IMG/VR virus record: IMGVR_UViG_3300044798_000079
Location: 1-47,828 of that record
From: a virus
Strand: one strand, 5' to 3'
Length of the DNA: 47,828 bases
The notes under the pieces were generated by a model, which saw nothing but the letters and a program-made list of their open reading frames with translations, searched no databases and was not told where the DNA came from. Positions within the stretch are counted from its first letter, which is position 1, and each line of letters starts with the position of its first letter. Both the position numbers and the translations under genes were made by a program. Positions 3,417 to 37,086 of this stretch are shown here, in pieces.

Positions 3417-4151
3417 TTATAGACTTCCACCGTGTAGTATGCAGGCTGCCCCAGGTGATGCTTCTGTTACCAATTGACCTCCATTGGTCCCTGCAACCTC
3501 TAAAGTAAGTACGCCAGCGATTGCGGTCCTGATCAGGTATGTTCCGTCACAACTGGTAGATCCTTCAACGATCAAGGTCTGGTCCGCCAGGAAACCATTA
3601 ATCAAAAATTGATTCGTCGAATCTGTAATGGTGCCGCCGACAGTTAGGGGAGCATCAGATGCTACAAAGTCTAATTTTATAGCGGCTATATCGGGACGAT
3701 GCACGAAGAAATAGGCATAGAGCCCATTCACGGCCCATGATCCAGATATGGGGAATGTCCCATTTTTATTTGTCTGACCAGGGGTATGACTGAGTACCTG
3801 AAAACCGGCTTCTGAATCGCTCGCTATATCGGCCATGAGAAAATCTCCGACCACAATGTTAACATATACTCGCGCATCCGTGAATTTTGTGTTGTTCTTG
3901 AGATAGGTCAGGAGTTGAACCTGTCCCAAGACATCTGCAAAAACCAAATTGCCACTATATAAAAGTGGACCATGCTTCCCACCCCCTGCGTCAATTACGG
4001 CAAAATCAACGCCGAATTCCTCACTCACAATCTCCGATCTTGTGAGTGACGGAAGGGTAAGTTGATTAAGACCCTTGATTGTGGCCTGATTAGGATCTCC
4101 ATACTTCAATACAATCGCCGCGTTTACTCCAAGTGTTCTGTTTACAGCCAT
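3417..4151 (-). CDS. Major tail tube protein (putative)
   Basis: 244 residues, beginning MAVNRTLGVNAAIVLKYG. It is beta-rich with a two-part look: residues 1-150 resemble a tail-tube fold. The C-terminal 90 residues are rich in G, T and V and resemble an appended Ig-like or decoration domain. It sits between the tail terminator candidate and the chaperones, exactly where the tube protein is expected. A good ribosome site (GGAGAAA) precedes the ATG. The call comes from position and composition, with no diagnostic motif seen. Confidence 0.65.
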   Translation of the reverse strand: MAVNRTLGVNAAIVLKYGDPNQATIKGLNQLTLPSLTRSEIVSEEFGVDFAVIDAGGGKHGPLLYSGNLVFADVLGQVQLLTYLKNNTKFTDARVYVNIVVGDFLMADIASDSEAGFQVLSHTPGQTNKNGTFPISGSWAVNGLYAYFFVHRPDIAAIKLDFVASDAPLTVGGTITDSTNQFLINGFLADQTLIVEGSTSCDGTYLIRTAIAGVLTLEVAGTNGGQLVTEASPGAACILHGGSL

Positions 4152-4180
4152 GACTTTTCTCCTTCCTTAAATTATTTTTA

Positions 4181-4588
4181 CTAACTCTTCTCGATTAATA
4201 TCGAGTAATCCACCGCCCAATGACGCACTCCCTTCCCTTCAGGTGTTATGATATCTTCGAACATTGTAGTTAGATTTTCCCGCGTCATTCTCAACAAAAT
4301 ATTGTTTGTGATCGTTAAGGAACATTCGTCAAAAAGCGTATTTAAATGGGTGTAAATGTTAGTTATTTCGTCCATTGCCTTCGATGCAGAGAAGAGAGAA
4401 AATTGAATAAGAATATCTTCAAAGTTCTCCGTGAAAGTTTTGTCGGGCACACTTGATACAATGGAAAAAACGACATAAGGAAACCCCGTCTTTTGTGGAG
4501 CCTCATCCAGATAAATCCGCCCACCCACGGCAGTTGAAAGGGCCGAACTTATAGTTTTCCCATATATTGCTGTGAGCAAATTATTCAA
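4181..4588 (-). CDS. Tail completion/terminator-like protein (DUF3168 type)
   Basis: 135 residues. The pattern GRIYLDEAPQKTGFPYVVFSIVS, followed by a strand-rich half, is typical of DUF3168-like minor tail proteins, which cap the tail tube and mediate head-tail joining. The start is a TTG at 4588, just downstream of the purine-rich end of the lipoprotein gene; no ATG gives a full-length product. It precedes the tail-tube gene, fitting the role. Confidence 0.65.
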   Translation of the reverse strand: MNNLLTAIYGKTISSALSTAVGGRIYLDEAPQKTGFPYVVFSIVSSVPDKTFTENFEDILIQFSLFSASKAMDEITNIYTHLNTLFDECSLTITNNILLRMTRENLTTMFEDIITPEGKGVRHWAVDYSILIEKS

Positions 4589-4591
4589 CCT

Positions 4592-4816
4592 CTATTTCCT
4601 CTCCCTCTCCAGACAATCCAGAAGTAGTTGCTTCTGATAAATAGCCTCTCCCATTAACTTCCTTAATGTCTCCTTTTTAACCACCATGCAATCAGAAGGG
4701 ACATCTTTATAAACTGTCTGGATGGTGGGAGTACAACTACAGATTATGTAGAGCAGAGATAAAATTGAGAAGAAGATTATCAAGCTCTTCCATTTCTTTT
4801 GCTTCAAGGATTCCAT
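4592..4816 (-). CDS. Small lipoprotein, candidate outer-membrane spanin (Rz1-like)
   Basis: 74 residues. A basic N-terminus (residues 5-10) is followed by a hydrophobic core (12-25) and the lipobox-like I-C-S-C with the lipidated cysteine at 28. The mature part is 46 residues and begins TPTIQTVYKD, reminiscent of Rz1-type proteins. The gene overlaps the preceding small gene (4737-4946) by 80 bp in another frame, the arrangement seen for nested Rz/Rz1 pairs. The site GGAG lies 8 bases before the ATG. The location in the lysis cassette supports the spanin reading. The inner-membrane partner is uncertain. Confidence 0.55.
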   Translation of the reverse strand: MESLKQKKWKSLIIFFSILSLLYIICSCTPTIQTVYKDVPSDCMVVKKETLRKLMGEAIYQKQLLLDCLERERK

Positions 4817-4946
4817 CCATTTTCTCCTTTATTTTATCGATCATTTCCTGTCGAGCAGCAAGTCTCCTTACAGGATCATCGATATATTTATCCACCATCT
4901 GTAATCCTACTCCAACAACTGTAGCTATAGCTCCCACTGTTCCCAT
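4737..4946 (-). CDS. Small protein of the lysis cassette, possible inner-membrane partner
   Basis: 69 residues from the ATG at 4946, chosen because TGGAGGC lies 6 bases upstream; an upstream ATG at 5024 would overlap the holin. The N-terminus is moderately hydrophobic (GAIATVVGVGLQMV, about residues 4-17) and could insert in the membrane. The rest is charged and helical and may form a coiled coil. Its 3' end overlaps the lipoprotein gene. The role as an i-spanin-like partner is only an inference from this layout. Confidence 0.6.
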   Translation of the reverse strand: MGTVGAIATVVGVGLQMVDKYIDDPVRRLAARQEMIDKIKEKMDGILEAKEMEELDNLLLNFISALHNL

Positions 4947-4960
4947 CTGACGCCTCCAGT

Positions 4961-5140
4961 TTACTTCCCAACAATCAATGTACTCTTGCTGGTAAAGTAG
5001 GCAATCACCGCTCCGCCCACGCACACTGCAAAAGTCATCCAGTTAAAGGGTTGAGATGATAGATAGGCTCTTAATGGCTCCAGGATGAATAACAAAGCAC
5101 CTATCACATTCGTAATGATGTTAATTAATTTAGGGGTCAT
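4961..5140 (-). CDS. Two-TM holin (putative)
   Basis: 59 residues. Two hydrophobic segments, about residues 5-20 (INIITNVIGALLFIL region) and 34-50 (WMTFAVCVGGAVIAYF region), are separated by a short hydrophilic turn, with a short basic tail (SK..GK). This is the size and topology of small class II or III holins. A strong ribosome site (GGAGGTGA) lies 5 bases before the ATG. It sits in the lysis region between the phosphatase and the lipoprotein pair. Confidence 0.7.
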   Translation of the reverse strand: MTPKLINIITNVIGALLFILEPLRAYLSSQPFNWMTFAVCVGGAVIAYFTSKSTLIVGK

Positions 5141-5145
5141 TTATA

Positions 5146-5559
5146 TCACCTCCTCTCCGAAAGATTTTCAAGATAATTCCTAAATACTGGATTCACCAGT
5201 GCTCCTGGCCTTTTCTTTTGAATCAGTTTGACTGCCTCGATTCCACTCATTTCATCCAGCCAGAGGATACACCCATTAACCAAACCCGATCTGTTCCTTC
5301 CCATCGAGCAATGGACTAAAACTGTCTGACCTGCCTTCCACGCATTAAACCCATAGCGAGCCACGTTCCACAGATTTCTTTCATCTGGCAACCAAGGCAT
5401 ATCGAGAATATGCCAGTAGAGATAAGACTTGATATTCAATTCATATAGCGTATCAAATCCGCCTTCTAAATCAATGACTGTATCCATCTCTTTCACAGCA
5501 TTAGGATCATCTATCTTTGTACTCTGAAAGAGATTTGGTTTGATTTCAAAGATTTCCAT
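5146..5559 (-). CDS. Dual-specificity/tyrosine phosphatase-like protein
   Basis: Contains the complete cysteine-phosphatase signature HCSMGRNRSG (HC-x5-R), with the nucleophile Cys followed six residues later by Arg. The upstream strand-loop (DTVIDLEGG) and the aspartate loop (HILDMPWLPDE) are those of dual-specificity phosphatases and could supply the general acid. The start at 5559 (137 residues) is preferred, with AGGT 5 bases upstream and no overlap. An ATG at 5595 would abut its own GGAG. A phosphatase inside a phage lysis region is unusual. It might dephosphorylate a host protein or an RNA 5' end; the substrate cannot be told. Confidence 0.8.
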   Translation of the reverse strand: MEIFEIKPNLFQSTKIDDPNAVKEMDTVIDLEGGFDTLYELNIKSYLYWHILDMPWLPDERNLWNVARYGFNAWKAGQTVLVHCSMGRNRSGLVNGCILWLDEMSGIEAVKLIQKKRPGALVNPVFRNYLENLSERR

Positions 5560-5560
5560 A

Positions 5561-5755
5561 TTACCTAAAATTATCTCCCGGACAATTGATTTCATCTCCT
5601 TTCTGTTTTGATTTTTCCTTTAAATATCCAATCGCCATTAAAATCGCCTCACTTTCTTGTTTATTATATCCAATTTTTCTGAGGTCACGATTGAATGCCA
5701 TTCTCTGAACATTACCAAGAATTTTTTGAATATCCTGATTTGAAATTAGATTCAT
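5561..5755 (-). CDS. Small hypothetical protein
   Basis: 64 residues, charged and helical, not recognised. It ends two bases before the preferred start of the phosphatase gene and is probably co-transcribed with it. The nearest ribosome-like site (AGAAGGAA) is some 15 bases before the ATG, so the start or the gene itself is less certain. Confidence 0.5.
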   Translation of the reverse strand: MNLISNQDIQKILGNVQRMAFNRDLRKIGYNKQESEAILMAIGYLKEKSKQKGDEINCPGDNFR

Positions 5756-6356: not shown

Positions 6357-6632
6357 TTATTGACCGTTGCCCAATATCATCTCCTTTATCCTCATCATGT
6401 GCTCAACTTGCCTCTTGCAATTATCCGGGATGACGGTCAGTCTTCCATGACTTCCCCACCCCTTGAACTTTCCACACTTGAGACATATCTCAACTGAATG
6501 TGGACAGAAACCTTCTGGATATCTGACTCTCAATTCTGCGCCAATAAGATTAGGCATCACAAAACATTGACCACACTTATTGTTATTTTTAGTTACTTTC
6601 TGATATTTGTGAAAAATGCACATTTCAATCAC
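6357..6632 (-). CDS. Cysteine-rich small protein (putative zinc binding)
   Basis: 91 residues with paired cysteines (CGQC near residue 20, then C..H and CLKC near 43-53), suggesting one zinc site. The start codon overlaps the stop of the endolysin gene (ATGA, 6629-6632), so translation is coupled. Function is unknown; similar short zinc-ribbon proteins are common in phage lysis and early regions. Confidence 0.7.
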   Translation of the reverse strand: MIEMCIFHKYQKVTKNNNKCGQCFVMPNLIGAELRVRYPEGFCPHSVEICLKCGKFKGWGSHGRLTVIPDNCKRQVEHMMRIKEMILGNGQ

Positions 6633-7102
6633 GCCAATTCGAAATGAGGTCTATCCGGGTGGGAAAACCTACCTCCCCATTTGAGTCCCACGGATTCCCC
6701 GATTATTCCCGCTTCATCATAGTCAGGAATATCATTATCATTAACGCTGATCTTAATATCCCACACGGCCTGTCCCTGTTTATTCAGAATGGCAATGTCA
6801 AACGCTTTGGATTTATCGTTATTTAAATCCTTATCGAACATATTGGTTACGTGCTTAGAATCAAGCGTCCATGTGACCATATTATTGTCAGTATTCTCGA
6901 TTGGACGAAGCCCTGCATGGAAGCGAAAAGTATTTACCGTCACTAAGGGTAATCTCCCCTGAACAAATAAGGCCATTTGCTCAAGGATAGAACGGGAAGT
7001 GGAAGTAATAACATGAATCAATCCTGCTTCTCCCATTTTGAGGTTGAATTCTTGATAAAGGATGATAAGTTTTGGATCAAGATCTTCTAAATTTCTGCTC
7101 AA
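6629..7102 (-). CDS. Endolysin, M15 (VanY/L-alanyl-D-glutamate peptidase) type
   Basis: 157 residues, a single catalytic domain. Zinc and active-site residues of the M15 family are visible: S-x-H at 82-84 (DSKH), the Asp of SKAFDIAI (Asp102), and HPDRPHFE with His153 at the C-terminus. This family cuts peptide cross-bridges of peptidoglycan, as in T5 and A500 endolysins. No signal peptide is seen, so export would depend on the holin. It lies downstream of a one-TM protein and upstream of the other lysis genes. Confidence 0.85.
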   Translation of the reverse strand: MSRNLEDLDPKLIILYQEFNLKMGEAGLIHVITSTSRSILEQMALFVQGRLPLVTVNTFRFHAGLRPIENTDNNMVTWTLDSKHVTNMFDKDLNNDKSKAFDIAILNKQGQAVWDIKISVNDNDIPDYDEAGIIGESVGLKWGGRFSHPDRPHFELA

Positions 7103-10631: not shown

Positions 10632-11933
10632 TCATCCCTCCTCAATTATCATTTCATTAAGAGGATGTGTTCCATGGATAAGATTAAGAGAACTCAGGGG
10701 TATTCCACCCTCTACTATCGTCATTGAAACGGGGGCATGGGTTCCATCTGCCACAGCCATCACTTGTGAACGTTTGAGTTTGACTGTTTTACCAGTTAAG
10801 ACAAAGAGACCTTCATCACAAACTAAGACATATTCTGCCGCTCCTACTGGTATGAGGATTAAGGTGACGTCCTGACCAGTAAGAAGATAATTACCAATTT
10901 CCGCCACCAATATTTTTTGATGAAGCAGGTAACATGATTGACCATTTATTGCATAGTCTCCTAATTCAGCCTGAACCACTCTATGATAAAGAAGAGGAGC
11001 GAGCGAACCAGTTAAAATGAAAGTTCCGGCATCTGCTCCAATCACCCTACTGTAAAATAAGGAAGCAACCTGTCCTGTAATATTGAAGGTTCCGGCATCG
11101 CAGGTTAAGGCATAGATTCCTACACCGGTAAAGGTTAAAGTAACATCTTGGCCGGTAAGGATAAAACTTCCAATTCCCGCCGAGAGAAGGTAACTTCGAA
11201 GGAAGGAAACATCGGCTCCCGTTATGGCATATCCACCCGACTCAGTAATAAGACTTCTTGAAGCGAGGAGGGCAACGGCTGTTCCGGTGAGATTATATGT
11301 TCCGGGGCTTGCATTAATCAGACTACTTTTGAGAAGGGAAACGGGTTGGCCTGTTTCTACAAAACTTCCGGCATCACAGGTGAGAAGGTATCCAGATGCC
11401 GGCATATCCCCACCTTCCCAATCGTCTAAATACACACCAGAACCATAAGTTGAATAGATCATCATCCCAGCGGAACCGCTTGCAAGAGATGAATCTGTTC
11501 TGGTTGAAAGATCGGAACCACCTACATTTGGAGTTAATGTTGTTCCCGATACACTCAGTTTCCAAATTTCATTATCCGCATTTGTCCGAGAAATTTCTGA
11601 ACCTAATTGAGTATTTACACCATCAACAACCTTAAACACACAAACCCCATTGGGAGGAGTAGCACCAGCAAATATATAGTACCCATTTCCTGTTCCAGCC
11701 GATGCAATCCTAACTGCTGGCCCGCACCATTCTGGTTTTAAAACCAGACACAATGAGTATTGATCGTTACCAAAAGTGTCAGCGTTCCAATAGGTAGAGG
11801 ACCATATGGTGGTTTGGGTACAAACAGCATTATTATATCCGGTTAATGCACCGAATCCAGGTGAAGTCGTCCAATTCCCAGCCAGAGGGTATTGAAAAGC
11901 TCTATTAAAATTATCAGTTTGGGGTAAACTCAT
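10632..11933 (-). CDS. Structural protein: concanavalin-like domain plus tandem beta repeats
   Basis: 433 residues. Residues 1-175 look like a LamG/concanavalin-type jelly roll (DNFNRA.. W... YY.F.., ending DDWEGGD). Residues about 180-390 hold roughly nine short repeats built on the pattern Y-x-L-T-x-DAG-x-F-x-x-TGQ-x-V-x-L, period about 22-23 residues, each predicted to be two beta strands. This is probably a virion decoration or fibre-like protein binding sugars or the host surface. The next gene starts one base after this one's ATG on the other side, a tight operon. Confidence 0.7.
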   Translation of the reverse strand: MSLPQTDNFNRAFQYPLAGNWTTSPGFGALTGYNNAVCTQTTIWSSTYWNADTFGNDQYSLCLVLKPEWCGPAVRIASAGTGNGYYIFAGATPPNGVCVFKVVDGVNTQLGSEISRTNADNEIWKLSVSGTTLTPNVGGSDLSTRTDSSLASGSAGMMIYSTYGSGVYLDDWEGGDMPASGYLLTCDAGSFVETGQPVSLLKSSLINASPGTYNLTGTAVALLASRSLITESGGYAITGADVSFLRSYLLSAGIGSFILTGQDVTLTFTGVGIYALTCDAGTFNITGQVASLFYSRVIGADAGTFILTGSLAPLLYHRVVQAELGDYAINGQSCYLLHQKILVAEIGNYLLTGQDVTLILIPVGAAEYVLVCDEGLFVLTGKTVKLKRSQVMAVADGTHAPVSMTIVEGGIPLSSLNLIHGTHPLNEMIIEEG

Positions 11934-20101: not shown

Positions 20102-20974
20102 TCACTGACATATCTCACATGGCACGGCAGGGATAAGGGCTATCTTCCCCATCAAATCACATTGCCAGATGATATCCCTCATCCTTGTCATAGACTTATG
20201 TAAAAATATATTGTTATTTTTTTTCTCAATTTCGTTATCCATTTCTACAATCCTTTGATAGTCTTCTGGATACTCACTCTTCATTAATTCATATTCATCA
20301 TCATGTTGTAATGGACACATGATACAGGATGACCTAGCAGGATCGGGCCAACCAAGAGAGCGGATAAGGAATAGACATTGATAACGAGAGAAATTCATAT
20401 CAATCAAAGGATAATGATTCGATATCCAATCAAGATTTGATTGTTTCTGCCTTTGACTTTCGTCTGTTGAAATGCCTATCCAACTCTTAGCCCTTTTAAC
20501 CCCGATTGAACGCAGGTATTGACGCATGAGTGCAACCTTCCATGTCCCACTGCACATCGTGTAGAGCCGTTGGATATTACCATCTTCTGTTTTTTTAAAA
20601 GCAGGGATAACAATCATCCCAGATTCATTGAACAATTTATTGTCGGGTGTATTGAGCGTTTTAAAATCAACTCCAACTTTATTACATGCCGGAATCAATA
20701 CCCTTCGAGCATAATCAAGCGTTCCGTGCTTTTCGTAACCAGTATCAACCATAAGAACTAAATCTGGCTTTGGTAATTCTCCCTTATATACCATCGCAAT
20801 CATGGCTGTTGATTGAACACCTCCACCGCAAGAGAGGACATTGAATTCCTTAACTCCGTCCATTCTAATTCGTTGTTTATCTTTGTTGCTGCAAGCACGA
20901 GAGCAATAATTAACAATAGATCTCTCCGTGTTAAATTCTTTAGAGCATTCTGGATTTAGGCATATTTTTTTCAT
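20102..20974 (-). CDS. PAPS-reductase-like PP-loop ATP pyrophosphatase with N-terminal zinc finger
   Basis: 290 residues from the ATG at 20974. The N-terminus (CLNPECSKEF ... YCSRACSNKD) is a four-Cys finger. Then comes the PP-loop SCGGGVQSTAM and the family pattern MVDTGYEKHGT. Later cysteines (SSCIMCP; CEICQ at the end) may bind a metal. Such proteins are frequent in phages and activate a substrate by adenylation. A sulfur-transfer or DNA/RNA-modification role, by analogy with DndC, is possible but unproven. It overlaps the HNH gene start-to-stop and precedes the terminase. Confidence 0.8.
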   Translation of the reverse strand: MKKICLNPECSKEFNTERSIVNYCSRACSNKDKQRIRMDGVKEFNVLSCGGGVQSTAMIAMVYKGELPKPDLVLMVDTGYEKHGTLDYARRVLIPACNKVGVDFKTLNTPDNKLFNESGMIVIPAFKKTEDGNIQRLYTMCSGTWKVALMRQYLRSIGVKRAKSWIGISTDESQRQKQSNLDWISNHYPLIDMNFSRYQCLFLIRSLGWPDPARSSCIMCPLQHDDEYELMKSEYPEDYQRIVEMDNEIEKKNNNIFLHKSMTRMRDIIWQCDLMGKIALIPAVPCEICQ

Positions 20975-21305
20975 CTGGTTCAATTAAATCCTGGTGAAAA
21001 TTAGGTGTATGACATGAAGCGCACACACCCTCGCCATTGTTTAGATCGATGTTCTTCCAGTTATTATCTTTGTGATGTGCTACTGTTGCGGGGGTGAGAA
21101 TTCCTTTTCTTAAACAGGACTGACACAGGGGATCACGATGTAGAATTGCTTCTCTCCAACGCTTGTGACCATTGGATAGATAGTGCTTTTGCTGTTCCTT
21201 TTCTTCAGGTATGTAGAGTCTAATATGCTTGGGTCTATGGGTAGGACACCACTTTCCTTCGGTGAGTAGTTCAGGACAACGAGGTGAAGCACATTGCTTA
21301 TACAA
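20940..21305 (-). CDS. HNH endonuclease (packaging-associated)
   Basis: 121 residues. The ββα-metal core reads CQSCLRKGILTPATVAHHKDNNW ... NGEGVCASCHTPNFH, with the HH pair and two CxxC metal knuckles. An extra N-terminal finger (C-x4-C ... CPTH) is present. The only full-length start is TTG at 21305. HNH proteins next to the large terminase act with it in cutting at cos in HK97-like phages, which fits here. Confidence 0.88.
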   Translation of the reverse strand: MYKQCASPRCPELLTEGKWCPTHRPKHIRLYIPEEKEQQKHYLSNGHKRWREAILHRDPLCQSCLRKGILTPATVAHHKDNNWKNIDLNNGEGVCASCHTPNFHQDLIEPDEKNMPKSRML

Positions 21306-22842: not shown

Positions 22843-23130
22843 CGCAAACTCATCATGGGTTTCATCTTTTCTCTCGCTCGCATCCCAATACTGGGTTTCA
22901 AACGTGGAGTCGCTCGCAGAATTTATTTAGGTTTCACGTCAACTTTCGCTCGCATTCTTTTATTGGGTTTCAAGAAGTCCGTCGCTCGCACACGTTCTTT
23001 GGATTTCAGCATTTCAATCGCTCATCTTTTACGGCCTCGCCTCAATATTGGGAGGGGACGCAAGGCGGTAATGGGTTTTATGGGCCTCCTCGCTCGCATT
23101 ATTCACCTGGATTTTAAACGGTTTTTCGCT
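22843..23130 (-). repeat. TIGR array B: eight 36-bp units, one degenerate
   Basis: 288 bp = 8 x 36 in strict register. From the 5' end (minus strand) units 1-2 (23130-23059) have loops TAAAATCCA and TAAAACCCA and lie inside the tas coding region. Unit 3 (23058-23023) is degenerate but exactly 36 bp, with TGAGGCGAG at the loop position; it contains the tas stop codon. Units 4-8 (23022-22843) have the edge TGCGAGCGA and the loop TGAAACCCA, with single changes in two loops. Variable pairs: AAAACCGTT/GGTGAATAA, GGAGGCCCA/TTACCGCCT, then TTGAAATGC/AAGAACGTG, CGGACTTCT/ATAAAAGAA, AAGTTGACG/AATAAATTC, CTCCACGTT/GTATTGGGA, GAGAAAAGA/TGATGAGTT. The geometry is edge 9, spacer 9, loop 9, spacer 9. Confidence 0.9.
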
Positions 23131-23973
23131 CTCTTCCTCCCAGTAAAAAGGCTGAATTATATTGGTATGTCCCATCAATGCTCCCGCATAGGGCTCTGAT
23201 ACTGGCTTCCCATCAAGAGTCCTTGCCACTGTCCACCAATGAGCAAGAAATATTTTAACCACTTCATTCTTTGCCGCATTATGGACATGACCCTTTGACC
23301 ATTCAGGATGATTCTTTGCATGCTTTGCCTTTCTCAAAAGAAGCAGGGCTTTATACGGATGATCATCTTGTTGCCTATTGAATTGATCTCCGATATGAAA
23401 ACCCAATGTTCTGCCAACTGTTGACCAATTAGACAAAACACCCTTTTTTCGCTTCGGCATAACGCCATCGATTGTATGCCTTCCCATATAAGCCCACCAT
23501 TTCGATATTGTTGGGAAGTCCTTATATTCGAGGCGATGCACCAAAAGACCCTCTTTTGCTACCTTCTTACAATCAACACAAGCCAATGTCTTTATTGTTT
23601 TCCCTGTTTCGGTTTGCTTTTCTTTTTTCTCCAATTTCCCTCCGCAATCTTTACAGACAGGGATAAATCGATAATAAAACAGGATGATCATCTGGGCCGC
23701 TATGAACGGGCCAATCCCTGATATTTTCTTTGCCCAGGTTTCCCATACATCCCACTGTTTCAATTCTTTTTCGATCTCTCTGGTAATCCGTCCCTTTACT
23801 GTTTCCAATCCTTCCGTCTTATCTTGTCCCTTTAAAAGTGTATCAAATTCCTCATTCCTTTCTTCCCCTGGCAGAGATTGAAGTCTCTGTTTCGTTGATG
23901 CAATTAATTGGGTTATACCTGCATACGTTCTCACCAGAAAATTCAAATACTTGATCCCTGCTTCGTTTGTCAT
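23029..23973 (-). CDS. tasA: Tas-like protein (TasA type; IS110/Nop-related, no nuclease)
   Basis: 314 residues, ribosome site AAAGGAGGAG 6 bases before the ATG. Residues 1-80 are a long helical segment. KISGIGPFIAAQMI (83-96) and DFPTISKWWAYMGR (152-165) are the helix-hairpin elements of the C-terminal domain of IS110-type transposases, which is structurally close to the Nop domain. A zinc-ribbon insert (Cys107, 110, 132, 135) separates them. Residues 175-255 continue as the basic helical core (SNWSTVGRTLGFHIGDQFNR; HVHNAAKNEVVKIFLAHWW). There is no DEDD/RuvC or HNH domain. With two 36-bp dual-spacer arrays alongside, the best reading is the guide-RNA-binding Tas protein of a TIGR system, TasA type. 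The last 33 residues (282-314) are translated from array units 1-3. An IS110 transposase is the likely automatic annotation but lacks catalytic domain and element ends. Confidence 0.82.
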   Translation of the reverse strand: MTNEAGIKYLNFLVRTYAGITQLIASTKQRLQSLPGEERNEEFDTLLKGQDKTEGLETVKGRITREIEKELKQWDVWETWAKKISGIGPFIAAQMIILFYYRFIPVCKDCGGKLEKKEKQTETGKTIKTLACVDCKKVAKEGLLVHRLEYKDFPTISKWWAYMGRHTIDGVMPKRKKGVLSNWSTVGRTLGFHIGDQFNRQQDDHPYKALLLLRKAKHAKNHPEWSKGHVHNAAKNEVVKIFLAHWWTVARTLDGKPVSEPYAGALMGHTNIIQPFYWEEESEKPFKIQVNNASEEAHKTHYRLASPPNIEARP

Positions 23974-26395: not shown

Positions 26396-26592
26396 TCTAA
26401 TTCTCCTGTGTGATCCAAACACTCTTTAATTGTATAAAGAGAAAGAAATTTCTTTTTACATTCTTTACATCTATGGATTTCCCTTAAAAGGGCTTTATTA
26501 TAACCATGAGAATATGATTTATCGGCATTATTAGCATCCCAAATCCCAAAAGCAGGGTTATCTTTGCCTTCACTTTTAAATCCGCCCATCAT
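26383..26592 (-). CDS. Small zinc-finger-like protein
   Basis: 69 residues with CKECKKKF and a later C-L-D-H, suggestive of a CCCH-type zinc site. The N-terminal half (GKDNPAFGIWDANNADKSYSHGYNKALLREIH) includes a possible HTH. The start overlaps the end of the DUF1376 gene, so it is translationally coupled. Confidence 0.55.
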   Translation of the reverse strand: MMGGFKSEGKDNPAFGIWDANNADKSYSHGYNKALLREIHRCKECKKKFLSLYTIKECLDHTGELEWKS

Positions 26593-27280
26593 TTTTTCTC
26601 ATTTCTTCTATTTCCCACATTCGGCGGTCCATAGGATCAGTTGGGGGGCCTTGTTGGGAATCTAAGGGTTTTGAGTTGTACCTTGGGTTATTGAGCCAGT
26701 TTAGAAATCTCTGTCTACTAACCGTTATCCCTTTAGCTTTAAACCAGGTTATACACTTCTGGAGTTGCTCTTTTATATTTAGATGAGAATAGCATTCGGT
26801 TTCTTGAAGTTCTTTTATCCAGTCTTCATCTGGAAGCAAAACTTTTCTTTTATATATTTTCTTTTGTATTAAAGATGAAGATGAAGATGAAGATGAAGAG
26901 TTATCTTCCGGTTGTAACCGAGTTTTAACCGTGGTTATATGTCCATCCCACCTTTTTTTAGCACTTGCTTTACCCTTTTTTGATTGTGATTCCGAATATT
27001 TAAGTTGGTTTTGTCTAACCTCTTCCATGCGTCTATTTATTAACATTCCGTGACCATTTTCTTGAAACTTTCTTGAAACATTTTTAATCCATTTTTGTTC
27101 AAATTTGATTTTTTTTTCTCTGGCGATCCTAGCAAGGTCCTGAATGTCATTTGGCAATCCACCATTAACCCATTCGTAATTTAGAAGTCTTACATATATT
27201 CCAACTTCATCATTAGACCATGCTGCGGTATCCATATCGAAATCTTGAGCATACATTTGAAACGCAGGAGCCTTACCCAT
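26576..27280 (-). CDS. Phage replication initiation protein, DUF1376 type
   Basis: 234 residues. The N-terminus (PAFQMYAQDFDMDTAAWSNDEVGIYVRLLNYEWVNGGLP) is diagnostic of DUF1376, a winged-HTH-like domain in phage replisome organisers. The C-terminal part (LNWLNNPRYNS) is typical as well. A run of nine serines (encoded by a 6-bp microsatellite) links the halves. ATG 27280 overlaps the previous stop as ATGA, with GAGGAGG upstream. Expected to load the host helicase at the phage origin. Confidence 0.85.
   Translation of the reverse strand: MGKAPAFQMYAQDFDMDTAAWSNDEVGIYVRLLNYEWVNGGLPNDIQDLARIAREKKIKFEQKWIKNVSRKFQENGHGMLINRRMEEVRQNQLKYSESQSKKGKASAKKRWDGHITTVKTRLQPEDNSSSSSSSSSLIQKKIYKRKVLLPDEDWIKELQETECYSHLNIKEQLQKCITWFKAKGITVSRQRFLNWLNNPRYNSKPLDSQQGPPTDPMDRRMWEIEEMRKNDGRI
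26874..26897. repeat. 6-bp microsatellite GATGAA x4 (poly-serine linker)
   Basis: Four perfect copies of GATGAA on the plus strand encode alternating TCT/TCA serines in the replication protein. It is a slip-prone tract whose length changes add or remove serine pairs without frameshift. Confidence 0.85.
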
Positions 27281-27678
27281 CACGCGAAGGCCTCCTCGAT
27301 GATTCGAATGATTTGGTTTGCGACCGATTTCTTAATAGCTTTTAATATCTGTTGGTCGAGAAGGATGGCGTCATTGATCTTGGGTATAGGGGAAGGTAAT
27401 ACTGATTTTTGAATGATTTTCTTTCGCTTTCTATGACCCTGGATACGATTGCCCTTATACCATTTATCCCCACATGGCTTTGAACAGAATCTCGATTTTT
27501 TTATTTTGGGCTCAAACTCATTTCCGCATTGGATACATTCTCTTTTCTCTTTTTCTTCCATAATCTTCTCCTCCTTTCCTTTCGGTTCTCTTCCACAGGC
27601 CATACAGACATATATGGCCGGTTCAATAGAGTTTCCTGGTTGATAAATCATTGCCCCATTGCAGTGTTCACACTTCAT
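27280..27678 (-). CDS. Double zinc-ribbon protein
   Basis: 132 residues from ATG 27678. Two modules: CEHCNGAM...CMACGRE near the start and CIQCGNEFEPKIKKSRFCSKPCGDKW in the middle, then a basic linker and a helical tail. Probably a nucleic-acid or protein-binding ribbon protein in the replication block. It overlaps the next upstream gene end. Confidence 0.65.
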   Translation of the reverse strand: MKCEHCNGAMIYQPGNSIEPAIYVCMACGREPKGKEEKIMEEKEKRECIQCGNEFEPKIKKSRFCSKPCGDKWYKGNRIQGHRKRKKIIQKSVLPSPIPKINDAILLDQQILKAIKKSVANQIIRIIEEAFA

Positions 27679-28516: not shown

Positions 28517-28563
28517 CCACGGAGCCGGTTGTACCCTGCCCAGAGCTCTTACCGACCCCGTGG
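28517..28563 (-). other. Structured intergenic RNA element
   Basis: On the minus strand CCACGG...CCGTGG closes an inner GTCGGT/ACCGGC stem with one internal loop (47 bases). It lies between the first HTH gene and the RHH gene and has no T tract. An attenuator or protein-binding site is possible. A smaller hairpin GGCCA-TTAC-TGGCC (28569-28582) covers the HTH stop codon. Confidence 0.45.
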
Positions 28564-28573
28564 TTACCGGCCA

Positions 28574-28765
28574 TTACTGGCCTGTTCTTTTTGAATTGAT
28601 GCGTGGATAAAGGAAATCAAGGATTTGTTGGGTGTAACGTCTGCCTTCCCTTCTGCCCTTTATCGCATCGTTAATTCGATTCCTTGGAATATTGATTTGC
28701 TGGCTGAGTTCGGTTTGAGATAAACCGAGGTCGATTAATCGTTTTTTGATTTTCTTTTCGTTCAT
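28574..28765 (-). CDS. Cro/CI-type HTH regulator, near-leaderless
   Basis: 63 residues from ATG 28765: an HTH_XRE core (IKKRLIDLGLSQTELSQQINIPRNRINDAIKG). No ribosome site precedes the ATG. The -10 of the leftward promoter ends 8 bp upstream, so the mRNA probably begins at or next to the ATG. It would be the first gene of the leftward early operon and is Cro-like by size and position. Confidence 0.75.
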   Translation of the reverse strand: MNEKKIKKRLIDLGLSQTELSQQINIPRNRINDAIKGRREGRRYTQQILDFLYPRINSKRTGQ

Positions 28766-28772
28766 GGTGGGG

Positions 28773-28801
28773 ATATTACCACTTGGTGTTAAATATGTCA
28801 A
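28773..28801 (-). promoter_or_regulatory. Leftward early promoter with internal operator O-L
   Basis: Minus strand: TTGACA (28801-28796), 17-bp spacer, TAATAT (28778-28773). The operator, read on the plus strand, is TTACCACTTGGTGTTAA (28776-28792), a 17-bp near-perfect dyad lying in the spacer and over the -10. It is the twin of the rightward site. The plus-strand HTH start codon lies within the -35. Confidence 0.85.
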
Positions 28802-29061
28802 GAGATTCTTTTGAGATTTTTTTACAAGGAATAGGAAGTCGCCTAAAATATTATCGGAAAAAGGTTAAAGGAATGTCTCAAACCAATTTCGGATTGCCAT
28901 TAAAGAAATCAGCAAATGCCGTTAAAAATTACGAAAAAGGCCCAAAAGGGGATAGAAATTTTCAGATTCCGCTTGAATATTTATTTGAAGTTTCAAAGCA
29001 TTACGAAGTCCGCCTCGAATGGTTGTTGTTTGAACAACCCCCCATCGAAAAGAAATCTTAA
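28795..29061 (+). CDS. HTH_XRE repressor (candidate CI-like)
   Basis: 88 residues from ATG 28795. HTH core: LKYYRKKVKGMSQTNFGLPLKKSANAVKNYEKG. The rest is LEYLFEVSKHYEVRLEWLLF, the common dimer-helix end of XRE repressors. No C-terminal cleavage domain is present, so RecA-type induction is not evident. Flanked by operators on both sides; no convincing promoter or ribosome site of its own was found, so its expression is unclear. It may be the protein that binds the two operators. Confidence 0.75.
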   Translation: MSRDSFEIFLQGIGSRLKYYRKKVKGMSQTNFGLPLKKSANAVKNYEKGPKGDRNFQIPLEYLFEVSKHYEVRLEWLLFEQPPIEKKS

Positions 29062-29069
29062 AAAAAGAC

Positions 29070-29098
29070 TTGACAAGATTAACACCTTGTGGTAATCT
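29070..29098 (+). promoter_or_regulatory. Rightward early promoter with internal operator O-R
   Basis: TTGACA (29070-29075), 17-bp spacer, TAATCT (29093-29098). The operator TTAACACCTTGTGGTAA (29079-29095) lies between and overlaps the -10. It fits the same consensus TTAnCAC-N3-GTGnTAA as the leftward site. It drives the plus-strand early operon starting at 29126. Confidence 0.88.
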
Positions 29099-29125: not shown

Positions 29126-29707
29126 ATGGAACTCGCCATAGATCATCAATTTAAATTATCTACCGATACTGAGAAACGACTTAATCAATTAGAAAAAATC
29201 ATCGAAAAGGGAATGGCTCATTTCGTAGAAGTTGGGACTGCTCTCTTAATTATTCAAAAAGAGAAACTTTATAAACTTATATTCCAAACCTTTGAGGAAT
29301 ACTGCAAAGAGAGATGGGATTTAAAAAGACAAAGAGCCTATGAGTTAATTGGAGCCGCACAGATTTCACAGAATTTGTCGGAAATTTACGACAATCTTCC
29401 TAAAAAAGAATCACATGCCGCAGCCCTTGCATCTCTCGAACCCGAACAACAAAAAGAAGCGTGGAAGAAAACCATAGAAACTGCACCGGAAGGTAGGGTA
29501 ACGGCTCGCCATGTTGAGAAGGTCGTTCAGGAAATGACACCCGAAACCAAAACGGAAATTGTTTCCGATTTAGATGAAGAACCAGAGGAAATTGAAGATA
29601 CACCCGTTCTAAAACAACTCAAGAAATATTGGGAAATGGCGGATTTATATGAAAAAGAAACATTTTTAGATTGGATCGGAGCAATTTATCAAAGGAGGAT
29701 AAAATGA
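29126..29707 (+). CDS. Early DNA-binding-like protein (KorB/ParB-type HTH region)
   Basis: 193 residues from ATG 29126 with AAGGAGGT 5 bases upstream. Pattern: a helical N-terminus, then FEEYCKERWDLKRQRAYELIGAAQISQNL (HTH-like), KKESHAAALASLEPEQQKEAWKKTI, and an acidic linker. Similar proteins occur as first early genes in phages, often annotated as nuclease inhibitors or ParB-like factors. The next gene overlaps by ATGA. Confidence 0.65.
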   Translation: MELAIDHQFKLSTDTEKRLNQLEKIIEKGMAHFVEVGTALLIIQKEKLYKLIFQTFEEYCKERWDLKRQRAYELIGAAQISQNLSEIYDNLPKKESHAAALASLEPEQQKEAWKKTIETAPEGRVTARHVEKVVQEMTPETKTEIVSDLDEEPEEIEDTPVLKQLKKYWEMADLYEKETFLDWIGAIYQRRIK

Positions 29708-30480
29708 AAAAAATCGTTCAGGTTAAATTATCAGACTTAAAGGATTCATTTTATATCAGAACAAAACTCAATGATGATCGACTTCAATACTTATGGTCGT
29801 TAAGGGAAGGTGGAGTAAAATTACCACCAATACTTATAACAAAAGACAATAAGATTGTTTGGGGAAGGCATAGAGTCTATGTAGAAAAAGAACTTATGAA
29901 TAACGATACGATTGAAGCCGAAATAACAGAGGAAGAGGATTTTCTTACTTTAGTAAAAATGTCATATGAAGAGAATTCTGAAGGCCCATTACCACCCACT
30001 AAAGACGATTTATTTCACACAATGACCCCCTTAGTTCAAAAAGGAATTCCATTAAAAAAAGTTGCAAATGCCTTTTCTTTTCTACCTTATGGGATGGTGA
30101 AAATGGCTTATCATCATGCCCAATGGAGAGAAGAAAATAAGAAATTACTTAAAGCACAGCAATTAGTAATTGAACAAAATTTTACAGTAAAAAAAGCAGC
30201 AGAAATCCTTGGAGTCAAAGAGGAAAAACTCAAAGAATTTATGAATAGGAAAAAACCAAATGGTGCAAGTGTAACAGCCTGTAAAAAAGAGATTGGTCAA
30301 AGATTCAATCATTTCAATAGGGTTAATGGTCAAAAAATAGGCGATCTATTTAAATGGTGGGATGATGGAATAATGATTAGAGAAGATGCAAATTCAGTAT
30401 TTCGTTATCTCGGAAAACTTATAATTAATCAAAATAAAATGTATGCCGATTGGCAGAAAAGATGGGATTCTAAAAAATGA
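29704..30480 (+). CDS. ParB/Srx-domain protein
   Basis: 258 residues from ATG 29704 (AAGGAGGATAAA upstream). The N-terminal ParB-like domain shows VKLSDLKDSFYIR and PPILITKDNKIVWGRHRVYVEKEL (the GRHR box). The C-terminal half has an HTH (FTVKKAAEILGVKEEKLKEFM). Likely a phage DNA-binding regulator in the early operon rather than a partition protein, as no ParA is present. Confidence 0.75.
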   Translation: MKKIVQVKLSDLKDSFYIRTKLNDDRLQYLWSLREGGVKLPPILITKDNKIVWGRHRVYVEKELMNNDTIEAEITEEEDFLTLVKMSYEENSEGPLPPTKDDLFHTMTPLVQKGIPLKKVANAFSFLPYGMVKMAYHHAQWREENKKLLKAQQLVIEQNFTVKKAAEILGVKEEKLKEFMNRKKPNGASVTACKKEIGQRFNHFNRVNGQKIGDLFKWWDDGIMIREDANSVFRYLGKLIINQNKMYADWQKRWDSKK

Positions 30481-31094: not shown

Positions 31095-31277
31095 ATGAGG
31101 GTAGTCTGCTCATATTGTCAAATTCTCTATGACCTCAAAGAATCCCTTGAGGATGATTCGGTAAGCCATGGCATATTTGAGGAATGTTTTCCGGCTGTCA
31201 TGAAAAATATTGAAATTGAACTTGCTCAAATAGAGGAGTCCCAAACCATTCCTGAAGGATCGCATGATTCAATCTGA
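31095..31277 (+). CDS. Small CxxC protein
   Basis: 60 residues, MRVVCSYCQILYDLK with an acidic rest. Similar CSYC-starting phage proteins are common. The end overlaps the start of the HNH gene by 14 bp, possibly a scar of the endonuclease insertion. Confidence 0.55.
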   Translation: MRVVCSYCQILYDLKESLEDDSVSHGIFEECFPAVMKNIEIELAQIEESQTIPEGSHDSI

Positions 31278-31902
31278 AGAAACTAAAAGGAAAAAATCCG
31301 AATCAGTGAAAGGTGAGAAAAATCCCTTCTTTGGAAGACATCACTCAGAAGAGGCAAAAATAAAAATATCTGAATTTGCAAAAGGAAGACATTTTACCGA
31401 AGAACATAAAAGAAAATTATCAGAAGTTCAAAAAGGTAGAAAAGGTTTAAACTTGGGAATTCCTCGCTCGGAAGAAACTAAACGTAGAATATCGAAGGGA
31501 TTAAAAGGTTCAAAAAATCCTCATTGGAAAGGAGGAATTTCGCCAATTGTGGAATTAATAAGAGGGTCCTCAAAATCTAAACAATGGCGAACAGATTGTC
31601 TTATTAGAGATAAATTTACCTGCCGAAAGTGTGGATATAAAGGAGAAAATTTAGAGGTTCATCATAGAAAATCTTTTTATAAATTTCTGGTTGAAATTAA
31701 AAATTATTTGCCTTTATTTGATCTCTATGAAGGAGCAATGCTCTATATTCCTTTATGGGATATTTCTAACGGAATTACATTATGTAAAAAGTGCCATAAA
31801 AACAAGAGATTTCCTAAACCAAATGGCCGAAAGGCTCGTATCCCCTCTGACCTCGAAAGAGACGATCGGAAGGGGATCAATGCCGAGCTGGCATCAAAAT
31901 AG
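31264..31902 (+). CDS. Free-standing HNH homing endonuclease with NUMOD3 repeats
   Basis: 212 residues. Four NUMOD3-type DNA-binding motifs (SEETKRKKSESVKGEKNPFFG and related) come first. Then an HNH core: CRKCGYKGENLEVHHRKSF ... NGITLCKKCHKNKRF. It is a mobile, selfish endonuclease that cuts intron- or insertion-less alleles. It sits at the end of a small gene. No intron is visible. Confidence 0.85.
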   Translation: MIQSEETKRKKSESVKGEKNPFFGRHHSEEAKIKISEFAKGRHFTEEHKRKLSEVQKGRKGLNLGIPRSEETKRRISKGLKGSKNPHWKGGISPIVELIRGSSKSKQWRTDCLIRDKFTCRKCGYKGENLEVHHRKSFYKFLVEIKNYLPLFDLYEGAMLYIPLWDISNGITLCKKCHKNKRFPKPNGRKARIPSDLERDDRKGINAELASK

Positions 31903-33637: not shown

Positions 33638-34475
33638 TGATTTTTTGATTCAAATGGCGGAACAGGCGGAGCGCCGCATTGATGCGGTGATCAAAATCAA
33701 GAAGATTGCCCTGAAAGTTTGTAACCCCAGAGACTGGACGGACCAAGCGGGTAATCCGTATCTTCAAACTTCTGGAGCGGAAAAAATCGCCAATCTCTTC
33801 AATATTTCGTGGCGCATAGATGAGCCAATATATGAAGAGGATTCAGATGGCCACTATACATATTCCTATAAAGGTTTTTTTTCATTAGGTTCACGTACCA
33901 CGGAGGCTGAGGGATCAAGATCGAGTCGGGACGGGTTTTTTAAACAATATCTTTATGAGGAGAAAGAGAGGAAGGAAGTCTCAATCTCTGAGCGAACAAA
34001 TAAGCGTGACGTGAAGATGGCTGCCCTAACCAATCTTCTTGGTAACGGGATTACCCGAATATTAGGAATCCGGAACCTCACATGGGATGACTTGAAAGAG
34101 TTCGCTGGGATTACCAAAGAGCAGGTGACATCGATCCAGTATAAAAAGGGTGGAGAAAAGGCTCCCGTCACCATGCCACAAGAAAAGAAGGCCAATGGAG
34201 AACAATCAAAAGAGCAAGGGAAAATCATTGTCTCTCTCGTAGATTCAGTCACCCAGTCCTCTGGAAAGAAGAAAGACGGAAAAGAATGGGTCAAGTATGC
34301 CGTCCATATCGGGGACAAGAAGTATTCCACGTTCAGCAAAACCATTGCGGAAGATGCAAAACAGGCAGGTCAATCAGGCGTGAAAGCGACCATCGAATAT
34401 AAAAATACTGAATTCGGCCCAGAGATCGTTACTCTGAAATTAGAGGAAACGAGAGAACCTGGAAGCGAAGGATAA
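33600..34475 (+). CDS. Putative single-strand annealing/recombination-associated protein
   Basis: 291 residues. The segment RIDAVIKIKKIALKVCNPRDWTDQAGNPYLQTSGAEKIANLFNISW is a recurrent phage sequence found next to RecB-type exonucleases. The C-terminal 90 residues (KIIVSLVDSVTQSSGKKKDGKEWVKYAVHIGDKKYSTF) look like an OB-type fold. It likely acts in single-strand DNA handling, paired with the following nuclease (TAATG overlap). The precise family was not confirmed. Confidence 0.65.
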   Translation: MEEKNLPEISIADDFLIQMAEQAERRIDAVIKIKKIALKVCNPRDWTDQAGNPYLQTSGAEKIANLFNISWRIDEPIYEEDSDGHYTYSYKGFFSLGSRTTEAEGSRSSRDGFFKQYLYEEKERKEVSISERTNKRDVKMAALTNLLGNGITRILGIRNLTWDDLKEFAGITKEQVTSIQYKKGGEKAPVTMPQEKKANGEQSKEQGKIIVSLVDSVTQSSGKKKDGKEWVKYAVHIGDKKYSTFSKTIAEDAKQAGQSGVKATIEYKNTEFGPEIVTLKLEETREPGSEG

Positions 34476-35062
34476 TGCCTGAACTACTCTTAGATGAAAA
34501 TCATATTTACCATTTAGATGGTCGCCAGATTGATGGCCTAACATCCACAATCGCCGAGGCTGGTCTGGGGTGGAAAGCTGATCCGTGGTATATGGGCAGG
34601 GGGACGGCTGTCCATTTGGCAACAGAATTTTATGATAAAGGAACTCTTGACGAGGATTCTGTGGCTGACGAAATCAAGGGTTATTTGGAATCTTGGAAAC
34701 AATTGAGACGGGATCAGAATTTTACTTCTATTCCCATTCCTACTTACACTGAGTTTAAAACTTACCATCCAGAACTCCTCGTAGGATGTAAGATTGATCG
34801 ATTACCGGGCCCCATTGATCTCAAGTCGGGGAGTCCTGAGGCCTGGCATATCCTGCAGATCGCCGTCCAGTGGTCAGCCCTAATTTGTCATGGGATGCAC
34901 GATCTGGCGAGATCACCAATGGATATTTATTTAGACCCCACTGGGGGGCCACCGAAAGTAAAGGCTTATAAAACATCTGAGCTCAGGGAAGCATTTAAGG
35001 CCTATTGTTCGATGTTGCATTTTTTGAGATGGAGGAGAGAAAAATATGGGAACTCAAATTGA
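34475..35062 (+). CDS. PD-(D/E)xK exonuclease (RecB/Cas4-like)
   Basis: 195 residues. GRGTAVHLATEFYDKG (motif I His/Glu), VGCKIDRLPGPIDLKSG (Asp ... Asp-x-Lys) and EAWHILQIAVQW (Gln motif) mark the catalytic core. Coupled to the preceding recombination protein, so it probably makes single-stranded tails for annealing. Confidence 0.8.
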   Translation: MPELLLDENHIYHLDGRQIDGLTSTIAEAGLGWKADPWYMGRGTAVHLATEFYDKGTLDEDSVADEIKGYLESWKQLRRDQNFTSIPIPTYTEFKTYHPELLVGCKIDRLPGPIDLKSGSPEAWHILQIAVQWSALICHGMHDLARSPMDIYLDPTGGPPKVKAYKTSELREAFKAYCSMLHFLRWRREKYGNSN

Positions 35063-35774
35063 AATCGTAACCCCAGAAATCCAGAAAGAGACAGAAACAG
35101 CACTTACCATTATCAATTCAGCCAATTCGCTGATCATCCAGAACGTTACAGACTATAAATATGCCCAAGTGACCATGCGGGAGCTCAAGGATCGGATCAG
35201 CGAACTAACTGATACCAGGATGGCACAGACACGGCCATTGGATGAATCGAAGGCAAAGATAATCGCCTTTTTTGCCCCTACTCTTCAGAAATTGGAGAAA
35301 GCCAAAAATTATCTGAATACTATCATGGTCAAATTCGCTGAAGAACAGGAGACTGAACGGAGAGAAGAGGAATATAAATTGAATGCGGCCAAAAATAAAC
35401 GGGAAGAGGAAGATGCTCTTGCCCGTGCAATTGAAGCGGAAGAGGCAGGAGAGAAGGAAGAGGCCGAACAGATCCTAAAAGAACCGTCCACCAGTGCACC
35501 AATAAAAGTAATGTCAGAGATCCCTAAATCGAAAGGGAGTTATATTCGAGAGAATTGGAGTGCAGAGATATTTGACCTTGCAATTCTAATAAAAGCTATT
35601 GCTAATAATGAAGTCTCATTGGAAGCAGCATCAGGAGTGATTTATTCTAATGCCGATGATCTAAAAAAATGGGCAGGACAATATATGACCTTTCTCAATG
35701 GAAAGGCTCGATCTTATAAACAGACATTGAATATTCCAGGTGTCAGGGCGGTTTCCGAAAAAAAACAGATTTGA
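35046..35774 (+). CDS. Coiled-coil protein, early recombination region
   Basis: 242 residues, with a long helical coiled coil (residues about 40-150, very rich in E/K/A) and a C-terminal helical domain (ADDLKKWAGQYMTFLNGKARSYKQTLNIPGVRAVSEKK). Such proteins are common beside phage exonucleases. Start overlaps the nuclease end. Role unknown. Confidence 0.65.
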   Translation: MGTQIEIVTPEIQKETETALTIINSANSLIIQNVTDYKYAQVTMRELKDRISELTDTRMAQTRPLDESKAKIIAFFAPTLQKLEKAKNYLNTIMVKFAEEQETERREEEYKLNAAKNKREEEDALARAIEAEEAGEKEEAEQILKEPSTSAPIKVMSEIPKSKGSYIRENWSAEIFDLAILIKAIANNEVSLEAASGVIYSNADDLKKWAGQYMTFLNGKARSYKQTLNIPGVRAVSEKKQI

Positions 35775-35988: not shown

Positions 35989-36081
35989 GGATCTGGAGAA
36001 ATTTCTATGATGATTAACCCTTTGACATCTTCTTTTGAACATGATACTTTTCCCTTCATTCCATTCTGGAGGAGGGACGCC

Positions 36082-37086
36082 ATGAAGGGGGGATACTATC
36101 TGCCGAAGGGGAGGCAAAGATATCGTGTATGGGTCAATTATCGGGGCAAGAAGTTACAAATCAATAAAGACCGCAATGGTAAGCCTTTTTATCATCCCAA
36201 TCAATGTGAGGACTTCCTTGAAGAGGTGGCCATTGAGATCCGGAGAGGTAGATTTGACCCTTCCATGTGGGGTAAGAATAAACCCAACCTTTTTGAAAGG
36301 GCATGGATCACCTATTCCACAAATAATCCCTGCAAGGAAGGGACAGATTATAATAGGGAGATGATCTGTAAATACTATCTTTTGCCTTATTTCAAGGGAA
36401 AATTCCTATCAGAGATTACGGAACTATCAATCAATGAATGGTGGGCTCAGCTACCGGAAAAGAAACCATCCTACAAAAGATTGATAAGGGCAAGACTGAG
36501 GGCCTTTTTAAACTACAACAAGAAGGTGCTCCCCGAAGAAATCACCATGCCCAAGGTCAAAGTGCCGAGACGAGATCAACCCTGGCTGTCCCGTGAAGAA
36601 CAGGAAAAGGTCTTGAATCATTTAGGTAAGGAAAAGGATATTATCAGATTTATGATGATTTATGGTTGCCGATCCTCTGAGGCTTGCAATCTTAGAAAGA
36701 CAGACATTGACTTTGAGAAAAAACTTATCACATTCAGGGACCGGAAAAACGAAATGGATAATACCCTTCCCTTGCTACCCGAAGCGGAGGCCATAATCAA
36801 AGGCTCCCATAGGGTAGAAAGCCTTGAATACGTATTCTGCGATGACAGAGGAGAGAAGTTTAATCGGTATGATGTCTACGGGGCATGGAAGAAAGCCAAC
36901 CGGCTATCCGGTGTCAAGATGGTAAGCCTCAAGAATGGAACTCGCCATTCCCTGGCCTCACAACTAAGCAATCGGGGAACATCCCTTTCGGATATTGCAA
37001 GGATACTGGGCAACACAGAGAGGGTGGTTGATGAGAATTATAGGAGGGTCAATATCCAGAGGATTGAGGAGGTGTTAGGGAGATGA
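36082..37086 (+). CDS. int: Tyrosine recombinase integrase
   Basis: 334 residues from ATG 36082 (GGAGGAGGGA upstream). An earlier in-frame ATG at 36007 would add 25 residues. A core-binding domain is at about 70-150. The catalytic set: Arg197 (YGCRSSEACNL), Lys222 (DRKNEMDNTLPL), Arg288-His289 (NGTRHSLAS), Asn311 in place of the usual His/Trp, and Tyr320 (DENYRRV). The usual first His of H-x-x-R is not obvious. It integrates and excises the phage genome. attP is probably in or near the non-coding region after 37490. Confidence 0.9.
   Translation: MKGGYYLPKGRQRYRVWVNYRGKKLQINKDRNGKPFYHPNQCEDFLEEVAIEIRRGRFDPSMWGKNKPNLFERAWITYSTNNPCKEGTDYNREMICKYYLLPYFKGKFLSEITELSINEWWAQLPEKKPSYKRLIRARLRAFLNYNKKVLPEEITMPKVKVPRRDQPWLSREEQEKVLNHLGKEKDIIRFMMIYGCRSSEACNLRKTDIDFEKKLITFRDRKNEMDNTLPLLPEAEAIIKGSHRVESLEYVFCDDRGEKFNRYDVYGAWKKANRLSGVKMVSLKNGTRHSLASQLSNRGTSLSDIARILGNTERVVDENYRRVNIQRIEEVLGR

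Follow-up and report, generated by a model that had tools for sequence, protein, structure and literature searches.

The 47,828-base virus record IMGVR_UViG_3300044798_000079, which was analysed over its whole length and is called the window below, carries a putative lysogeny switch in which two promoters point outward into two early operons. The window encodes a large terminase, a portal, a head protease, a capsid protein and a lambda-J-like tail protein, as well as a tyrosine integrase, and is therefore regarded as a temperate tailed phage. The leftward operon, on the minus strand, starts with the gene for a small Cro-like protein and continues with small genes, a primosomal-type gene and the late genes. 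The rightward operon consists of a first gene, a ParB-like gene, exonuclease-like genes and then the integrase. A helix-turn-helix (HTH) gene was originally predicted between the two promoters and lies there on the plus strand; it encodes the presumed prophage repressor, a protein of 88 amino acids (Table 1).

The original prediction also described two 17-bp dyads that share TTAnCAC-N3-GTGnTAA, each within an optimal promoter, one leftward and one rightward, and overlapping the -10 element. Both dyads are present, and their coordinates place them over the -10 elements of a leftward and a rightward promoter. They are more alike than was claimed, with 15 of 17 positions identical in promoter orientation and the common form TTAACACC(AA/TT)GTGGTAA. 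The start codons of the two divergent HTH genes are 29 bp apart, and the left operator lies between them, 2 bp from the ATG of the repressor gene. Each operator covers the promoter spacer and the first three bases of the -10 element, such that the TGn extension of the -10 belongs to the operator itself (GTGGTAA). The word optimal applies to the -35 hexamers (TTGACA) and the 17-bp spacing but not to the -10 hexamers, which match the consensus at four of six positions on the left (TAATAT) and three of six on the right (TAATCT), each with an extended TGn (TGGTAAT).

These elements are rare in the record. TTGACA-N16-18-TAATNT strings occur exactly twice, at the two switch promoters, where 0.15 per Markov window would be expected. 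The exact dyad pattern arises at a rate of 0.0025 per window in 400 first-order Markov windows, and never twice in one. A scan of the 47.8-kb record for further operator copies finds none at up to one mismatch; the sole copy with two mismatches lies at 11911, at a stringency where chance alone would give 1.67 matches. As an inverted pair, the two 29-bp promoter/operator units are identical at 23 of 29 positions, and no other pair within 600 bp in the window reaches this level. Taken alone this last test is weaker, given that 15 Markov windows still yielded 3 registers in total at the 23/29 threshold.

Comparison with one related phage record, L003/G001 (61,891 bases; L003 below), which carries the same module, supports a link of the two sites to one regulator. 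Strong DNA homology between L003 and the window extends on both sides of the switch, and the DNA beside the operators is 89-95% identical. The Cro-like proteins are 95% identical, as are the first 300 nt of the next rightward gene, but the middle HTH proteins are only 33% identical; the L003 repressor has 80 amino acids and consists of an HTH domain only. The L003 operators, ATTACCTATTGTGGTAA and TTTACCTTTTGTGGTAA, are alike at 15 of 17 positions and have the dyad TTACC-N6-GGTAA. The 61.9-kb record contains this dyad at just two places, both at the switch, and the window contains none. The chance of a set place carrying TTACC is low (p about 0.0012). When operators of the same promoter are compared between the phages, 10 of 17 positions (left) and 13 of 17 (right) are identical, and the differences are confined to the ten bases on the -35 side, with GTGGTAA over the -10 invariant. 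Both operators have thus changed together, and with the middle protein, between nearly constant flanks. This concerted change supports the action of one protein on both sites, most likely the middle repressor, and favours the single repressor for both promoters that was originally proposed. Both repressors carry KNYE in the putative recognition helix and differ at the positions aligned by eye with residues 28 and 29 of the 434 repressor (A-N vs K-S), a difference that would fit a partly changed operator.

Queries with the repressors of both phages, the Cro-like protein, the next two genes and two alignments found no third phage of the group among viral contigs. Among bacterial genomes, the Cro-like query gave one 34% match, which was not used. 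Searches of phage and plasmid records by tblastn gave nothing beyond weak matches, among them streptococcal CI-like repressors; the one from Javan252 is a longer protein. The window-type promoter/operator was absent from viral contigs scanned for its exact pattern, and L005 and L006, inspected by eye, have no comparable switch.

Table 1. Features of the switch and of its two operons in the window
Feature	Position	Strand	Details
Leftward promoter (predicted)	28773..28801	-	-35 TTGACA 28801-28796, 17-bp spacer, extended -10 TGG-TAATAT 28778-28773; consensus match only
Left operator (OR-like), 17 bp	28776..28792	-	TTACCACTTGGTGTTAA as plus strand; TTAACACCAAGTGGTAA in promoter orientation (28792-28776)
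Cro-like HTH gene, 63 amino acids, heads leftward operon	28574..28765	-	phrog_1468 9.5e-14; Pfam HTH_3 1.7e-5
Strong RNA hairpin directly 3' of Cro-like gene (lambda tR1 position)	28517..28563	-	-40.8 kcal/mol region fold, z -3.8
Presumed prophage repressor gene, XRE-type HTH, 88 amino acids	28795..29061	+	phrog_8 5e-8; phrog_4 1.4e-6
Rightward promoter (predicted)	29070..29098	+	-35 TTGACA 29070-29075, 17-bp spacer, extended -10 TGG-TAATCT 29093-29098; consensus match only
Right operator (OL-like), 17 bp	29079..29095	+	TTAACACCTTGTGGTAA in promoter orientation
First gene of rightward operon	29126..29707	+	Shine-Dalgarno AGGAGG upstream; 78% identity with L003 counterpart
ParB-like gene, second of rightward operon	29704..30480	+	weak phrog_12047 ParB-like match, 0.056
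Two exonuclease-like recombination genes, rightward operon	34475-35062 and 35046-35774	+	phrog_466 1.7e-6; phrog_10477 2.7e-20
Tyrosine integrase	36007..37086	+	Pfam 2.5e-19; phrog_1 5e-35
Primosomal-type replication gene, leftward operon	26576..27283	-	DUF1376 1.3e-10; phrog_9327 1.5e-14

The Cro-like protein belongs to the XRE/Cro-CI HTH family (HTH_3 score of 25.2 bits vs a cut-off of 23). It is 434-repressor-like, with a four-helix model at a predicted local distance difference test score (pLDDT) of 86. The 88-residue protein appears to be an HTH domain only, without a C-terminal domain for oligomerisation or RecA-stimulated cleavage. Its model, of moderate confidence (pLDDT 76), resembles the domains of BldD, SinR, ImmR, P22 c2 and 434 Cro, with a probability of about 1.0 and template modelling (TM) scores of 0.53-0.63 against XRE domains and no Foldseek E value below 0.001. 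The nearest solved DNA-binding domains by sequence are of the ImmR/SinR type, with weak E values of 0.003-0.015.

Seven bases (CCCCACC) separate the left -10 element from the ATG of the Cro-like gene, and the spacing is equal in L003 (CCCCACT). Since the predicted transcription start falls on or beside the ATG, this promoter geometry makes a leaderless cro-like message likely. The hairpins that follow the gene in the two phages are both strong (z about -4) and are unrelated in sequence. The window hairpin has no clear T run; that of L003 (~5243-5295, minus strand), also directly 3' of cro, has a terminal T run, as in an intrinsic terminator. An integrase-like gene (4045-5211, minus strand) lies directly 3' of cro in L003, whereas the window has its integrase gene at the distal end of the rightward operon.

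The locus is, with good probability, a compact immunity region of the lambda type, in which a dimer of the 88-residue repressor would occupy one 17-bp operator at each outward early promoter and silence both operons in a lysogen. Because each operator extends over the spacer and the upstream half of the -10 element, repressor binding would keep RNA polymerase off both promoters. The leftward operon for Cro, replication and late functions and the rightward operon for recombination and integration would thereby be kept silent. The first protein made from the leftward promoter would be the Cro-like one, which would promote lytic growth. The sequences show the sites, the promoter strings, the gene order and the joint change of both operators with the repressor; from these we infer binding, dimerisation and repression, the leaderless start, and which gene acts as CI and which as Cro.

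Several points weigh against this model. The informative relatives amount to L003 alone. The repressor is small, and its Pfam HTH_3 match (0.042) is below the cut-off. A search for a promoter of the repressor gene itself, on the plus strand inside cro in both phages, gave no candidate that was convincing or common to the two. Gene conversion between the inverted repeats could also have contributed to the similarity of the sites. The rightward ParB-like gene has also diverged, with 40% identity between the window and L003, and therefore co-variation alone does not separate the repressor from the ParB-like protein.

That divergence is one reason to consider the dyads as sites for the ParB-like protein or for a neighbouring product of the rightward operon, acting as a partition-type or other regulator; the preceding gene, the first of the operon, also has a weak Pfam match to HTH_ParB (0.045). 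However, the ParB resemblance is itself weak, and the sites lie on core promoter elements on both sides of an HTH gene, as phage operators do, without clusters elsewhere. We therefore give this explanation hardly any credence. The two sites could also be alike only through duplication or gene conversion of a promoter element, without a common regulator, and the likeness does span the whole 29-bp promoter units. Yet the shared sequence is a dyad in each phage, although a promoter itself needs no dyad, and the half-sites differ between the phages, with the differences restricted to the half beside the -35 while the adjoining DNA is conserved. Such an origin without a regulator is very improbable.

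It is unlikely, if less so, that the Cro-like protein is the main protein on both dyads and that the middle gene has some other role. Of the two HTH proteins, the Cro-like one scores better, and the leftward operator lies right at the start of its gene, as would suit an autorepressor. Its sequence is nearly constant in L003, though, whereas both operators differ there in the half on the -35 side. The protein may contact the invariant GTGGTAA half, but it cannot account for the joint change of two operators. Given this constancy, the Cro-like protein would have to read only the constant half, act at one site or tolerate the change, and it is unlikely to recognise the changed half. Action of both HTH proteins on the dyads, as first suggested, is thus doubtful for the Cro-like one. 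The middle repressor remains the best candidate for the protein that binds both sites.

Other genes of the window lie outside the switch. A NUMOD3/HNH homing-type endonuclease (31264-31902, plus strand) is found within the rightward operon. Inside the leftward operon, a gene at 23029-23973 (minus strand) matches phrog_4285, annotated as a transposase (1.6e-24), with no Pfam match. A PAPS-reductase-like protein (20102-20983, minus strand; Pfam 1.4e-4, just under the cut-off) adjoins an HNH endonuclease and the terminase. Among the tail-region genes, 5146-5595 (minus strand) encodes a dual-specificity-phosphatase-like protein with the active-site motif HCSMGRNRSG (Pfam DSPc 3.3e-7, under the cut-off). 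An M15-type peptidase (6629-7102, minus strand; Pfam 1.7e-7) is probably the endolysin.

The evidence supports a compact immunity switch of the lambda type that lacks both multiple operators per promoter and a large C-terminal repressor domain. If so, this is a lysogeny switch built from two small proteins and two sites; it would be simpler than that of lambda and easy to rebuild with reporters. More tentatively, the operator may be asymmetric, such that the GTGGTAA half is a fixed platform for RNA polymerase and possibly Cro, and the other half, with the dyad spacing, sets immunity; we regard this design as possible rather than probable. Were it true, phages could switch immunity by replacing a repressor of 80-90 amino acids and half of each operator while Cro is kept. 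The most interesting part of the case is that the window and L003 form a natural pair in which the repressor and operators have changed and Cro has been kept. Therefore, one can ask how immunity specificity shifts without breaking the lytic regulator.

In lambda, the order is cro - OR - cI - OL - PL operon, with 17-bp operators over the promoters. The window is a mirror image of this arrangement, with cro, operator/promoter, repressor, operator/promoter and recombination/integration operon in the same order, a repressor gene read toward the OL-type promoter and 17-bp operators over the promoters. The repressor and cro genes are divergent, with one operator between their start codons; a similar operator lies on the far side of the repressor gene, at the other early promoter, and the cro/replication/late operon and the recombination/integration operon lie on opposite sides. 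The hairpin 3' of cro in both phages has the position of tR1 in lambda. The window differs from lambda in that it has one operator per promoter rather than three, its repressor lacks the C-terminal dimerisation/cleavage domain, cro rather than cI appears leaderless, and no CII-type gene was recognised beside cro.

The heteroimmune phages lambda, 434 and 21 have like flanks and different repressors and operators. These lambdoid phages swap cro along with cI and the operators, whereas the window and L003 keep cro nearly unchanged. ImmR of ICEBs1 and SinR-type small XRE regulators are among the nearest folds and sequences to the window repressor, with weak similarity. Both SinR and ImmR have additional domains and belong to other regulatory circuits. 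A literature search found no small domain-less repressors with leaderless messages.

Triple operators are a lambdoid rather than a general feature, given that PY54 has a single OR-type site (OR3), which adjoins cI and is bound by Cro; its cI and cro messages are leaderless (PMC4488713). The immB regions of the telomere phages PY54, phiKO2 and N15 are likewise compact cI/cro switches, but with larger repressors than that of the window (CB is about 37 kDa) (PMC4488713, PMC4997575). Unlike the window operators, the single OR3 of PY54 is not a repressor site over early promoters (PMC4488713). In phiKO2, the repressor CB and Cro have different operator sets (PMC4997575), and a Cro that does not follow the specificity of the repressor therefore has a precedent.
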